This document shows, in pieces, positions 48,232 to 54,529 of a stretch of DNA of 64,000 bases. Made by a program: the position numbers and the translations under genes. Source of the stretch: Deltaproteobacteria bacterium. Lineage in GTDB: Bacteria > Myxococcota_A > UBA796 > GCA-2862545. The stretch spans positions 1 through 64,000 of the forward strand of contig SBGP01000048.1 in assembly GCA_006226595.1 (NCBI GenBank), written 5' to 3'. Under the pieces are notes generated by a model. It was not told the DNA's origin. It did not search any database and worked only from the letters and a program-made list of their open reading frames with translations. Position 1 is the first letter of the stretch. Every line of letters begins with the position of its first letter.

Positions 48232-48669
48232 ATGACCGTCTTCCCCGAGTTCAGCCCCTTCCCGCTGCTGATGGCAGTGCCGTTCGCGATCACGCTGATC
48301 GCGCTGCACTACATCCTGTTCAGCCCCCTCCTCGCCTACCTGGAGGCTCGCGATAAGACCATTCGCGGCGCTCGGGACGAGGCGAAGTCGCTGACCGACC
48401 AGATCGAGGAACGCCTCCTCGACCTCGAGGTCCGACTCAAGGAGGCGCGCTCGCAGGCCGCTGCCGTACGAAAGGAGGCTCGTGACCGCGCCCATCTCCA
48501 GGCCAACGAGATCCTCGCCGCCGCTCGCGTCGAGGCCGAGGGCAAGGTGACCGAGGCGACCACCCAGATCGCGGCCTCCGAGAAGGCGGCGTCTGCCGAG
48601 CTCAAGGCCCAGACCGAGGCCATCGCGGGCGAGATCGTGACCACGATCCTTGGCCGTGAAGTCGCGTAA
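48232..48669 (+). CDS. atpF: F1Fo ATP synthase subunit b' (first b-type subunit)
   Basis: The 145-aa protein has one N-terminal membrane helix (LLMAVPFAITLIALHYILF, about 10-30) then a long, highly charged coiled coil (LEARDKTIRGARDEAKSLTDQIEERLLDLEVRLKEARSQ ...), the hallmark of the peripheral-stalk b subunit. It is the first of two b-type genes in the operon; the second follows 10 bases later, so this one is best called b'. ATG 48232 is used; the upstream ATG frame start at 48172 overlaps the promoter and is rejected. Confidence 0.85.
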   Translation: MTVFPEFSPFPLLMAVPFAITLIALHYILFSPLLAYLEARDKTIRGARDEAKSLTDQIEERLLDLEVRLKEARSQAAAVRKEARDRAHLQANEILAAARVEAEGKVTEATTQIAASEKAASAELKAQTEAIAGEIVTTILGREVA

Positions 48670-48679
48670 GGAGCCACAG

Positions 48680-49630
48680 ATGCACAAGATCATCGGAACC
48701 CTCCTGCTCGCTTCGGCCCTGGCCACTCCGGCCCTCGCCGAGGAGCCCGCTCACGGCGAAGCCGCGGAGGCCCACGCCAACGACGCCGAGGCTCACGCCG
48801 CGGGTAACGAGGCCCACGCCACCGACGAGGCCCACGCCGCGGGTGACGAGGCCCACGCCACCGACGAGGCCCACGCCGCGGGTGACGAGGCGCACGCCGC
48901 CGACGCCGGTCATGGCGATGCCCATGCGGCCGACGCCGGCCACGGCGATGCCCATGCGGCCGACGCCGGCCACGGCGATGCCCATGCGGCCGACGCTGGT
49001 CACGGCGATGCCCACGGCGACGCGGCGCACGGTGAGGAGCACGGCGACGGCGGCCACGGCGGCCACCACGTCGTCGACTACACCGGCGACCACGACGGCG
49101 ATGGCACCGCGAACTGGCTCGACTCGGACAACGAGGAAGCCTACGTCGTCACCAAGCTCGGTGCGCACCTGTTCAACGTGCTCATCCTCTTCGCCCTCAT
49201 CTGGTGGGGCGCGGGTGCTGCGATCAAGAACGGTGTGCACCAGCGCGCCGCCGCGATCCGCAAGGACCTGACCGACACCGCGCGCGAGCGTGACGAGGCC
49301 CGCCAGAACTTTGAGGAGCTCGGCCAGCGCCTGCAGGCGTTCGAGGCCGAGGTCGCCGACATGAAGGCGACCGCCGAGGCCCAGGCCAAGGCCGAGGAAG
49401 AGGCGCTCGTTGCCCGTGCGCACGAGGAGGCCGGCCGCATCGCCGCCACCGCCGAGCGCAACATCCGCGACGAGACGATCCGCGCCCAGGTGGCCCTCCG
49501 CAAGGAGGCCGTGGCGCTCGCGGTCCAGCTCGCCGAGCACACCCTGAAGAACGCGGTGCAGGAGTCCGACCAGACCCGCCTCGCCGCCCAGTTCCTCCAG
49601 TCCATCGACGGAGAGGTGGCCAATGGCTGA
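48680..49630 (+). CDS. F1Fo ATP synthase subunit b with signal peptide and His-rich repeat domain
   Basis: The 316-aa protein is about twice usual b length. It starts with a signal peptide (MHKIIGTLLLASALATPALA), then about 115 residues of Ala/His/Asp repeats (DEAHAAGDEAHAT, then AHAADAGHGD x4) holding about 22 histidines, a DHDGDGTANWLDSDNE calcium-loop-like element, one membrane helix (about 155-183, FNVLILFALIWWGAGAAI), and a charged coiled coil typical of b (RERDEARQNFEELGQRLQAFEAEVADMKA...). In b subunits the N-terminus faces the periplasm, so the repeat domain should be extracytoplasmic. AGGAG precedes the ATG. Its stop overlaps the delta start by eight bases. The function of the repeat domain is unknown. 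Confidence 0.85.
   Translation: MHKIIGTLLLASALATPALAEEPAHGEAAEAHANDAEAHAAGNEAHATDEAHAAGDEAHATDEAHAAGDEAHAADAGHGDAHAADAGHGDAHAADAGHGDAHAADAGHGDAHGDAAHGEEHGDGGHGGHHVVDYTGDHDGDGTANWLDSDNEEAYVVTKLGAHLFNVLILFALIWWGAGAAIKNGVHQRAAAIRKDLTDTARERDEARQNFEELGQRLQAFEAEVADMKATAEAQAKAEEEALVARAHEEAGRIAATAERNIRDETIRAQVALRKEAVALAVQLAEHTLKNAVQESDQTRLAAQFLQSIDGEVANG
48788..49021 (+). repeat. Minisatellite-like repeats encoding the His-rich domain of subunit b
   Basis: A roughly 39-base unit (encoding EAHAAGDEAHATD) repeats about three times from 48788, then a 30-base unit (encoding DAGHGDAHAA) repeats four times at 48902, 48932, 48962 and 48992, nearly base-identical. In-frame periods mean copy-number change would lengthen or shorten the histidine domain without a frameshift. 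Confidence 0.85.
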
Positions 49631-50177
49631 TCTCGGAATCGCCCGCCGCTGGGCTGCGGCCCTGCTCGACCTCGCCTCCGACGAGGGCAAGATCGACGAG
49701 CTCGGCGCCGAGCTCGCCGCCGTGACCGAGGGCTTCGGCCCCGCCGGCATCGATGCGCTCTCGAACCCCGTGTTCACGCAGGACGAGCGCCGCGTCGCCC
49801 TCGACGCCATCCTCAAGAAGGCCAAGGTCGGTGGCATCACCGCCAACACCCTTCGCCTGATGCTCGACAAGGGTCGCTTCGCCCTGCTGCCGCAGGTCGC
49901 CGAGGTGTACCGCGCCAACGCCGACGAGCGTGCTGGCCGTACCCGCGTCGTCATCGACACCGCGTTCCCTCTCACCCCTCAGCTCGAGGGTGAGATTCGT
50001 GCTGCACTCGAGAAGGCCACCGGCTCGACCGTGGTCCTCGAGGCGCGCGTGAACGAATCCCTTATCGGCGGGCTCGTGGTCCGCGTCGGTAGCAAGGTCT
50101 ACGACGCGTCCGTTCGCACCCGCCTTCGTGACCTTCAGCATCGACTCACCTCCAGCCAGGTCCCCGCCGAGGCCTGA
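49623..50177 (+). CDS. atpH: F1Fo ATP synthase subunit delta
   Basis: The 184-aa subunit matches the OSCP/delta family: an N-terminal helical bundle (IARRWAAALLDLASDEGKIDELGAEL) and C-terminal beta-helix part with the conserved LRDLQHRL end and a GGLVVRVGSKVYDASVRTRL block. It ties the b stalk to the top of the alpha3beta3 head. It overlaps the preceding b gene by eight bases and is followed by a 41-base gap before alpha. Length is normal for the family. Confidence 0.93.
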   Translation: MADLGIARRWAAALLDLASDEGKIDELGAELAAVTEGFGPAGIDALSNPVFTQDERRVALDAILKKAKVGGITANTLRLMLDKGRFALLPQVAEVYRANADERAGRTRVVIDTAFPLTPQLEGEIRAALEKATGSTVVLEARVNESLIGGLVVRVGSKVYDASVRTRLRDLQHRLTSSQVPAEA

Positions 50178-50218: not shown

Positions 50219-51745
50219 ATGGACATCCGCGCTGACGAGATCAGCCAGATCCTCAAGAAGCAGATCAAGGACTACGAGTCCCGGGTCTCCGTCGCCGAGA
50301 CCGGCACGATCCTCTCGGTCGGTGACGGCATCGCCCGCATCTACGGCCTCGAGAACGCCCTCGCCGGCGAGCTGCTCGAGTTCCCGGGTGGACTGCGTGG
50401 CATGGTCCTGAACCTGGAAGAGGACAACGTCGGTGCCGCGCTCTTCGGCTCGGACACCGAGATCAAGGAAGGCGACGAGGTCAAGCGGACCGGCACGATC
50501 GTCGAGGTTCCCGTCGGCGAGGCCCTGATGGGTCGCGTGGTCGATGCCCTCGGCAACCCGATCGACGGCCTCGGCCCCATCGAGACCGAGCACAGCCGCA
50601 AGATCGAGCTCAAGGCGCCGGGCATCATCGCCCGTAAGTCCGTGCACGAGCCCATGCAGACCGGCATCAAGGCCATCGACTCGATGACCCCCGTCGGCCG
50701 TGGCCAGCGCGAGCTGATCATCGGTGACCGCCAGACCGGCAAGACCGCTGTCGCCATCGACACGATCATCGCCCAGAAGGTGTTCAAGGACGACCCGAAG
50801 CAGAAGGTGTTCTGCTTCTACGTGGCCATCGGTCAGAAGCAGTCGACCGTCGCCCAGGTCACCGAGACCCTGCGTCAGTACGGCGCGCTCGAGTACACCT
50901 GCATCGTGTCCGCGCCGGCCGCCGCCGCCGCGCCGCTGCAGTTCCTCGCGCCCTACTCCGGCTGCGCGATGGCCGAGTACTTCCGCGACAACGGCATGCA
51001 CGCCCTGATCATCTACGATGATCTCTCCAAGCAGGCCGTCGCCTACCGTCAGCTCTCCCTGCTCCTCCGCCGCCCGCCGGGCCGCGAGGCGTACCCGGGC
51101 GACGTCTTCTACGTCCACAGCCGTCTGCTCGAGCGCGCGGCCAAGATGAGCGACGAAGAGGGCGCCGGCTCGCTGACCGCGCTGCCGATCATCGAGACCC
51201 AGGGCGGCGACGTGTCCGCCTACGTCCCGACGAACGTCATCTCGATCACCGACGGCCAGATCTACCTCGAGTCCGACCTGTTCAGCGCCGGCCAGCGTCC
51301 GGCCGTCAACGTCGGCCTCTCGGTCTCCCGCGTCGGTGGCGCCGCGCAGATCAAGGCGATGAAGGAAGAGGCGGGCCCGCTCCGCCTGCAGCTCGCGCAG
51401 TACCGTGAGCTCGCCGCCTTCTCCCAGTTCGCGTCGGACCTCGATGCCGCGACCCAGCAGCAGCTGCGCCGTGGTGAGCGGATGACCGAGCTCCTGAAGC
51501 AGGGCCAGTACAACCCGCTTCCGGCCGAGCAGCAGGTCGTTCAGATCCTCGCCGGCAACCAGGGCTTCCTCGACGACCTCAACAACCGGGACGTCGGCCG
51601 CTTCGCCACCGAGCTCATCGAGCACTTCAAGGCGAACAAGAACGAGCTGCTCGCCGAGATCGTCGAGCGCGGCTCGCTCAAGAAGGAAGGCCTGAAGGAC
51701 CGCCTCGTCGCCGAGATCAAGTCCTTCAAGTCCACCTGGTCCTGA
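50219..51745 (+). CDS. atpA: F1Fo ATP synthase subunit alpha
   Basis: The 508-aa subunit is full length, with the N-terminal beta-barrel ([23 protein letters not shown]), the P-loop GDRQTGKT (about 169-176), [18 protein letters not shown], the catalytic-site arginine region [15 protein letters not shown], and the C-terminal helical domain. In the F1 head, alpha carries the non-catalytic nucleotide sites. Start ATG 50219 with GGAG upstream. It lies between delta and gamma, the normal order. Confidence 0.97.
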
Positions 51746-51774
51746 TCCCCGCGTAGTCCCCCAGGAGGGCCTCG

Positions 51775-54098
<2,324 letters not shown>

Positions 54099-54136
54099 TT
54101 TTCTGACGGCCCGCGTACGCGGGCTCCGGAGGCCCC

Positions 54137-54529
54137 ATGGCTCTTCACGTAGACATCGTCACCCCGACCAAGCTCGCTTGGAGCGGGGAGGCCACCGAGG
54201 TCGGCGTTCCCGGTTTCCTCGGTGAGTTCGACGTGCTGCCCGGGCACGAGGACTACCTCTCGCTGACCACCGGCGGCCTGATCACGGTCACCGACGCGGC
54301 CGGCAAGGTCCACAAGTTCGTGGTCGGTCGCGGCTTCGCCGAGGCCGGCATGGACCGGGTCACCGTGCTCGTCGATTCCTGCCTCTCCGCCGACGAGGTC
54401 GACAAGGCCTCGGCGCAGCGCGAGTTCGACGAGGCCGAGCAGGCCCTCGGCAGCGCCTCCTTCGGTGAGGCCGACTGGACCGCAGCCGAGGAGAAGCGCG
54501 AGCTGGCAGCCGCCAAGCTCCGCCTCTAG
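54137..54529 (+). CDS. atpC: F1Fo ATP synthase subunit epsilon
   Basis: The 130-aa subunit has the N-terminal beta-sandwich (MALHVDIVTPTKLAWSGEATEVGVPGFLGEFDVLPGHEDYLSLTTGG) and a C-terminal helical part (SAQREFDEAEQALGSASF ... EEKRELAAAKLRL). It binds gamma and can inhibit ATP hydrolysis. CGGAGG precedes the ATG. It is the last gene of the operon, followed by a terminator hairpin. Confidence 0.95.
   Translation: MALHVDIVTPTKLAWSGEATEVGVPGFLGEFDVLPGHEDYLSLTTGGLITVTDAAGKVHKFVVGRGFAEAGMDRVTVLVDSCLSADEVDKASAQREFDEAEQALGSASFGEADWTAAEEKRELAAAKLRL

Follow-up and report, generated by a model that had tools for sequence, protein, structure and literature searches.

What is a long histidine-rich segment doing at the outer end of an ATP synthase stalk subunit? 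The question is raised by atpF (48680..49630, +), which lies in the window, the whole stretch of 64,000 nucleotides analyzed here, and which encodes a subunit b of 316 aa with a periplasmic extension, as identified from the open reading frame (ORF), the PF00430 match and the conserved architecture. The gene starts with ATG, and a Shine-Dalgarno sequence, AAGGAG (48668..48673, +), was recognized in the sequence six bases upstream. The product comprises a predicted cleavable signal peptide at residues 1–20 (48680..48739, +), judged by eye from an n/h/c pattern with ALA^EE (MHKIIGTLLLASALATPALA^EE) and similar in relatives; a His/acid-rich low-complexity extension at residues 21–132 (48740..49075, +); a 12-residue Ca-type loop, DHDGDGTANWLD, at residues 137–148 (49088..49123, +); a membrane helix at approximately residues 159–182 (49154..49225, +), placed by hydropathy by eye; and a peripheral-stalk coiled coil (49226..49627, +), supported by PF00430 and by the model, in which most of it has a pLDDT above 90. 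In the AlphaFold2 model, a helix spanning residues 153–292 comprises the single N-terminal membrane helix and continues into the long helix of the stalk.

A Pfam profile search matched PF00430 (ATP-synt_B) to residues 162–289 (E 5e-13), and the score, 49.7 bits with the cut-off at 28, makes the product a member of the family. The NCBIfam equivalog TIGR01144 gave 51 bits, below its cut-off of 65.5; this sub-threshold score marks a divergent member and limits automatic naming, but Pfam family membership is unaffected. Both b models cover the product only from the membrane helix onward. The product is also homologous to chain b1 of 6n2y (E 5e-09).

The gene lies in a cluster with the order b', b, delta, alpha, gamma, beta, epsilon. 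Subunit b' (atpF', 48232..48669, +; PF00430 E 2.7e-17) has an ordinary short N-terminus, and the b' subunits of relatives across the family likewise lack an extension. The delta/OSCP gene atpH (49623..50177, +; PF00213 E 1.1e-41) is followed by atpA (50219–51745, +), atpG (51775–52635, +), atpD (52659–54098, +) and atpC (54137–54529, +), which are ORFs named by sequence and gene order; atpA to atpC span 50219..54529. Subunits a and c are encoded on another contig, with a single subunit a, and only two genes of the genome, b and b', score above the PF00430 cut-off, so that b is single besides b'. As b and b' are clustered with delta and the remaining F1 genes, and the single subunit a lies elsewhere, the atpF product is a genuine F-type b subunit, normal and single-copy, of the ATP synthase of the cell. 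The original prediction of a b subunit with an extension expected in the periplasm is supported by the adjoining b' and delta genes and by the Pfam and NCBIfam matches. The c subunit (L006:2181-2495, G000:C36) has a cleavable-looking signal peptide too, MNKLAKVLPVAVALLAVSGTAFA; its ion site reads Q...FIESL, from which Na+ or H+ coupling is not obvious.

An artefact, either a wrong start codon or repeats made by misassembly, might also explain the extension, and the assembly is indeed fragmented into 117 contigs. However, there is no in-frame ATG, GTG or TTG between 48680 and a GTG at 49178. Since this next in-frame start sits within the membrane helix, translation beginning after the repeats would destroy the helix, and such a start was rejected. 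Misassembly was rejected as well, as relatives from separate assemblies, a congener included, have the same architecture. We therefore regard an artefact as extremely improbable, although the repeat number could be slightly wrong in the assembly.

The extension had been estimated at about 115 residues with about 22 His in 39- and 30-nt repeats; the 112 aa of residues 21–132 contain 38 Ala, 21 His, 19 Gly, 15 Asp and 12 Glu (27 Asp/Glu in total), and Lys, Arg, Met and Cys are absent. The repeats form a 39-nt tandem array (48767..48905, +; TRF score 216) and a 30-nt tandem array of AHAADAGHGD units (48899..49061, +; TRF score 205). His accounts for 18.8% of the residues in the extension versus 2.4% of those encoded by 1129 called genes of the same genome. 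AlphaFold2 predicted the extension to be disordered (pLDDT 36–50), and its charge, calculated with model pKa values, is about -27 at pH 8 and about -8 at pH 5.5.

This composition brings metal handling into consideration, in which the tail would bind periplasmic Zn2+, Ni2+ or Cu2+ as a store or shield; a shield would keep inhibitory metal off the proton entrance of Fo and, via a similar tail on oxidase subunit IV (see below), off the proton exit. A density of 21 His in 112 aa speaks for such a role, but the His residues are spaced mostly 4–7 apart with scarcely any HH or HxH, the spacing varies between genera, acidic residues are at least as abundant as His, a feature that a metal site does not require, and Fo itself has no need of a transition metal. 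Met and Cys are missing as well, and the Cu option of the original prediction is weakened to that extent, because Cu(I)-type binding is unlikely without these residues. Overall, we consider metal handling a rather unlikely explanation, yet the strongest competitor of the one that we favor.

The DxDGDG element noted in the original prediction is present at residues 137–148, but it does not belong to the His repeats; it is a separate, more conserved Ca-type loop with the pattern DxDxDGxxNWxD. The loop has Asp/Asn at positions 1, 3 and 5, Gly at position 6 and an acidic residue at position 12. Positions 1, 6 and 12 were invariant in 16 members of the family; in 13 members, D137, G142, N145, W146 and D148 were invariant and H126, H130, D139 and D141 nearly so. 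AlphaFold2 confidence over the loop was low (pLDDT 50–61), and a Pfam scan of b with E up to 5 gave no match to a thrombospondin type-3 or EF-hand profile, returning only ATP-synt_B and one spurious family match. Many proteins of the same genome carry such loops, for example DDDGDGTANCMD at C1. The loop probably folds the membrane-proximal end of the extension once Ca2+ is bound. Thrombospondin type-3-like Ca loops are abundant in the genome, which also encodes large proteins with many DxDGDG repeats (G000:C1:204471 and C32:97649 (-)). Elsewhere in the phylum, b subunits from several families (L093, L094, L095, L097, L112, L125 and others) carry a juxtamembrane NW motif (INWTDF, ENWWSWDYGPGK); it resembles the NW of the Ca loop, and the two may represent a shared periplasmic contact.

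The conservation of the loop and its NW, which are among the most conserved b residues in the family, would fit a tether, in which the tail and Ca loop anchor the ATP synthase to a periplasmic partner, peptidoglycan or the oxidase; Ca2+ or Zn2+ might, for instance, bridge the b tail and the oxidase subunit IV tail. The like tails on both complexes point in the same direction; however, a partner domain is not known, and the tail is predicted to be disordered. We consider a tether improbable.

Is the extension a peculiarity of one genome? A b subunit match was found in 19 of the 21 genomes of the family; one b is cut off by a contig end (G016) and another begins inside the extension (G012). When G016 was left out and G012 included, 17 of the remaining 18 b subunits had the loop, in some cases degenerate, and the b of G013 lacked both the loop and the long tail. 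Across the family, the extensions are 25–114 residues long with mostly 8–27% His and almost no Lys or Arg, although G015 has only 1 His and G020 only 3. The repeat units change fast and differ by genus, while their composition is similar: the separately assembled congener G001, which has the same b layout with 75% overall identity, uses APADDAH instead of the AHAADAGHGD of the window b. Between these two b subunits, dN/dS was about 0.14 for the extension, 0.15 for the loop region and 0.30 for the core, values in which the alignment is ambiguous inside the repeats and in which aligning repeats favors matching residues. Most relatives in the order have the signal peptide with a short linker of the GGGHG type and lack the loop. 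Among 80 b subunits from the rest of the phylum, 17 have 5–16 His in the N-terminal segment; these are spread over seven families and have different repeat units (HAEPA, HEGAA and AHAPGE among others). A loop-pattern scan of named genomes found 149 stretches; b subunits account for 12 of these, and all 12 came from the family of the window under titles such as Deltaproteobacteria, Proteobacteria, Myxococcales and the like. The b sampling covers the family, the order and the rest of one phylum, with mostly incomplete genomes. The His-rich extension with the Ca-type loop is therefore a family-wide architecture of a Myxococcota-like family, present in nearly all b subunits. The search of Myxococcota b subunits proposed with the original prediction thus recovered the extension in relatives, at 25–114 residues; the feature is family-wide and partly phylum-wide, and not a local oddity. 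In the open-licence part of PubMed Central, no relevant paper on a His-rich extension of b was found.

These comparisons also bear on the idea that the extension is a weakly constrained linker. In this view, replication slippage would have lengthened a short ancestral remnant of a signal peptide that contained a GGHG stretch; the sequence would only have to be hydrophilic, K/R-poor and unstructured, and His would have been copied along. The signal peptide and short linker of the order relatives and the range of extension lengths in the family agree with this, as do the repeat copies, which vary non-synonymously (302 identical, 107 synonymous and 169 non-synonymous codon pairs; 68, 10 and 35, respectively, for His codons). 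In contrast, His remains high in most genera despite the changed repeat units, the dN/dS of the extension is low, other low-complexity repeats of the genome, such as the GWGD repeats of C5, are not His-rich, and a similar tail was gained by oxidase subunit IV. We place this explanation just below metal handling, as an unlikely one; both are nevertheless serious competitors of the explanation that we favor.

The oxidase emerged from a survey of His density. In 402 kb with 269 called genes, the b extension holds the most His-dense 60-residue stretch, and the second rank is taken by a 196-aa protein at 103631–104221 (-), on the contig of which the window is the first 64 kb (G000:C32, L149/L150). 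This protein, encoded 54 kb from atpF, is a caa3-type oxidase subunit IV, with TIGR02229 just above its cut-off and PF03626 under its cut-off (E 1e-5); its gene adjoins COX1, COX2-like and COX3 genes. The C-terminus is a His/Asp/Glu repeat tail, HGHGGDHAAEGAHGGDHAAEGDH..., with 13 His in 73 aa, and is predicted to lie in the periplasm, because the protein has three helices with Lys between helices 2 and 3. The tail is therefore similar to that of b in being a presumably periplasm-facing, His/Asp/Glu-rich repeat on a proton-moving complex of the same organism; unlike b, subunit IV is an unrelated protein, and its tail is C-terminal and includes four Lys. All nine family orthologues found have 3–14 His in this tail, as against mostly 0–5 in other families (11 in G268). 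The His counts of the b and oxidase tails were correlated (Spearman 0.79, n = 9, permutation p 0.007, with phylogeny ignored). The N-terminus of COX1, which starts MSEPASTHHAHGHGAHDDHHHEEN, is His-rich too, and that end should be cytoplasmic.

When 1.52 Mb (1129 called genes) was considered, the real genes among the most His-dense ones encoded b, subunits IV and I of the oxidase, a ZIP-like transporter and a lipoprotein resembling a methyltransferase; genes were called by a simple GC-frame method that admits some wrong-frame ORFs, and the other high scorers looked like such ORFs. Generic His-rich low complexity of the genome was rejected, as real His-dense genes are few in 1.52 Mb. No His tail of this kind was seen in complex I or in related antiporter-like subunits, where the densest stretch in a genuine-looking frame had 6 His in 50 residues. 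The lipoprotein (G000:C14:78770-79519 (-)) has a His-rich N-terminal stretch, AHHGEGHHDGHAAHGEMRPHHGGDHATVSH, and an exported-looking protein (L002:1117-3102, G000:C5) has acidic Gly-Trp-Gly-Asp tandem repeats, GWGDAGSDDAGWGEASSDEAGWGEA, that lack His. Two of these observations add to the case for metal handling: the ZIP-like transporter has a His-rich loop, a classic metal signature, and metal centres lie at the periplasmic face of the oxidase.

From the gene, family, architecture, composition and conservation described above, we infer a function for the tail. We tentatively favor, without calling it probable, a local, disordered, pH-responsive proton buffer or antenna at the periplasmic mouth of Fo, and rank it ahead of metal binding, the weakly constrained linker and, last, the tether. 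The cleavable signal peptide would export b so that a disordered His/Asp/Glu tail of 112 residues lies in the periplasm, with one putative Ca-binding loop linking it to the membrane helix. The tail would act as a polyelectrolyte where the periplasmic proton half-channel opens; there its carboxylates would draw protons in and its histidines (pKa near 6.5) would hold and release them across the periplasmic pH range. The near absence of Lys and Arg would keep the tail negative and exportable, and the Ca loop would stiffen the membrane-proximal end so that the tail is held beside Fo. Repeat slippage would alter tail length, with selection preserving composition and not exact sequence, and the oxidase subunit IV tail would have an equal role at the proton-releasing pump.

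The buffer or antenna function is supported by the maintenance of the signal peptide, His-rich segment and Ca loop in the family with a lower dN/dS in the extension, by the first and second ranks of b and oxidase subunit IV for His density, by the oxidase tails of the nine orthologues and their correlated His counts, and by the calculated charge shift. Against it, Zn, Ni and Cu(II) binding is also typical of His/acid-rich disordered tails; the N-terminus of oxidase subunit I is His-rich, though expected to be cytoplasmic; the low-His b subunits of the same family indicate that the tail is not essential to Fo; and Na+ coupling is conceivable, given the Q...ES residues at the c ion site. A broader proposal, that the matched disordered, pH-responsive His/acid tails on the periplasmic faces of the oxidase and the ATP synthase form a dedicated proton buffer or relay that evolved for localized proton coupling, seems to us rather unlikely.

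It has long been debated whether the protons released by a pump reach ATP synthase through bulk water or travel along the surface of the membrane. A lineage with long His/acid tails on both enzymes and natural length variants would offer a direct test of the proton path. To our knowledge, the outer end of subunit b is short in the known structures; the present b subunits show that this end is free to evolve large additions. The bacterial F-type b subunit (PF00430) has been solved in E. coli (6OQR) and Bacillus PS3 (6N2Y). The b subunit described here shares with them the membrane helix, the coiled-coil stalk, the pairing with b' and the adjoining delta gene in the operon; in contrast to the few residues outside the membrane in E. 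coli and Bacillus PS3, it has a signal peptide, 112 His/acid-rich residues and a Ca-type loop.

The loop follows the Dx[DN]xDG calcium-binding motif (PMC3123361) through D137-x-D139-x-D141-G142, with D148 at position 12, but differs in being a single loop with a conserved Asn-Trp and no match to a Pfam calcium domain. Antennas made of carboxylates and histidines have been proposed for the outer surface of the membrane (PMC4332470), and protonatable groups have been proposed to form an antenna on the cytoplasmic side of a respiratory supercomplex (PMC11189923). In E. coli Fo, a carboxylate/imidazole funnel formed by subunit a and the N-terminus of b1 is the proposed proton antenna of the input channel (PMC9447477); this funnel, together with the matching oxidase subunit IV tail, strengthens the antenna idea. 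We read the b tail as a possible exaggeration of the funnel. The proposed likeness is functional, with carboxylates and histidines at the periplasmic proton entrance in both cases; however, the E. coli funnel consists of a few side chains in a folded structure, whereas the b tail is long, repetitive and predicted to be disordered.
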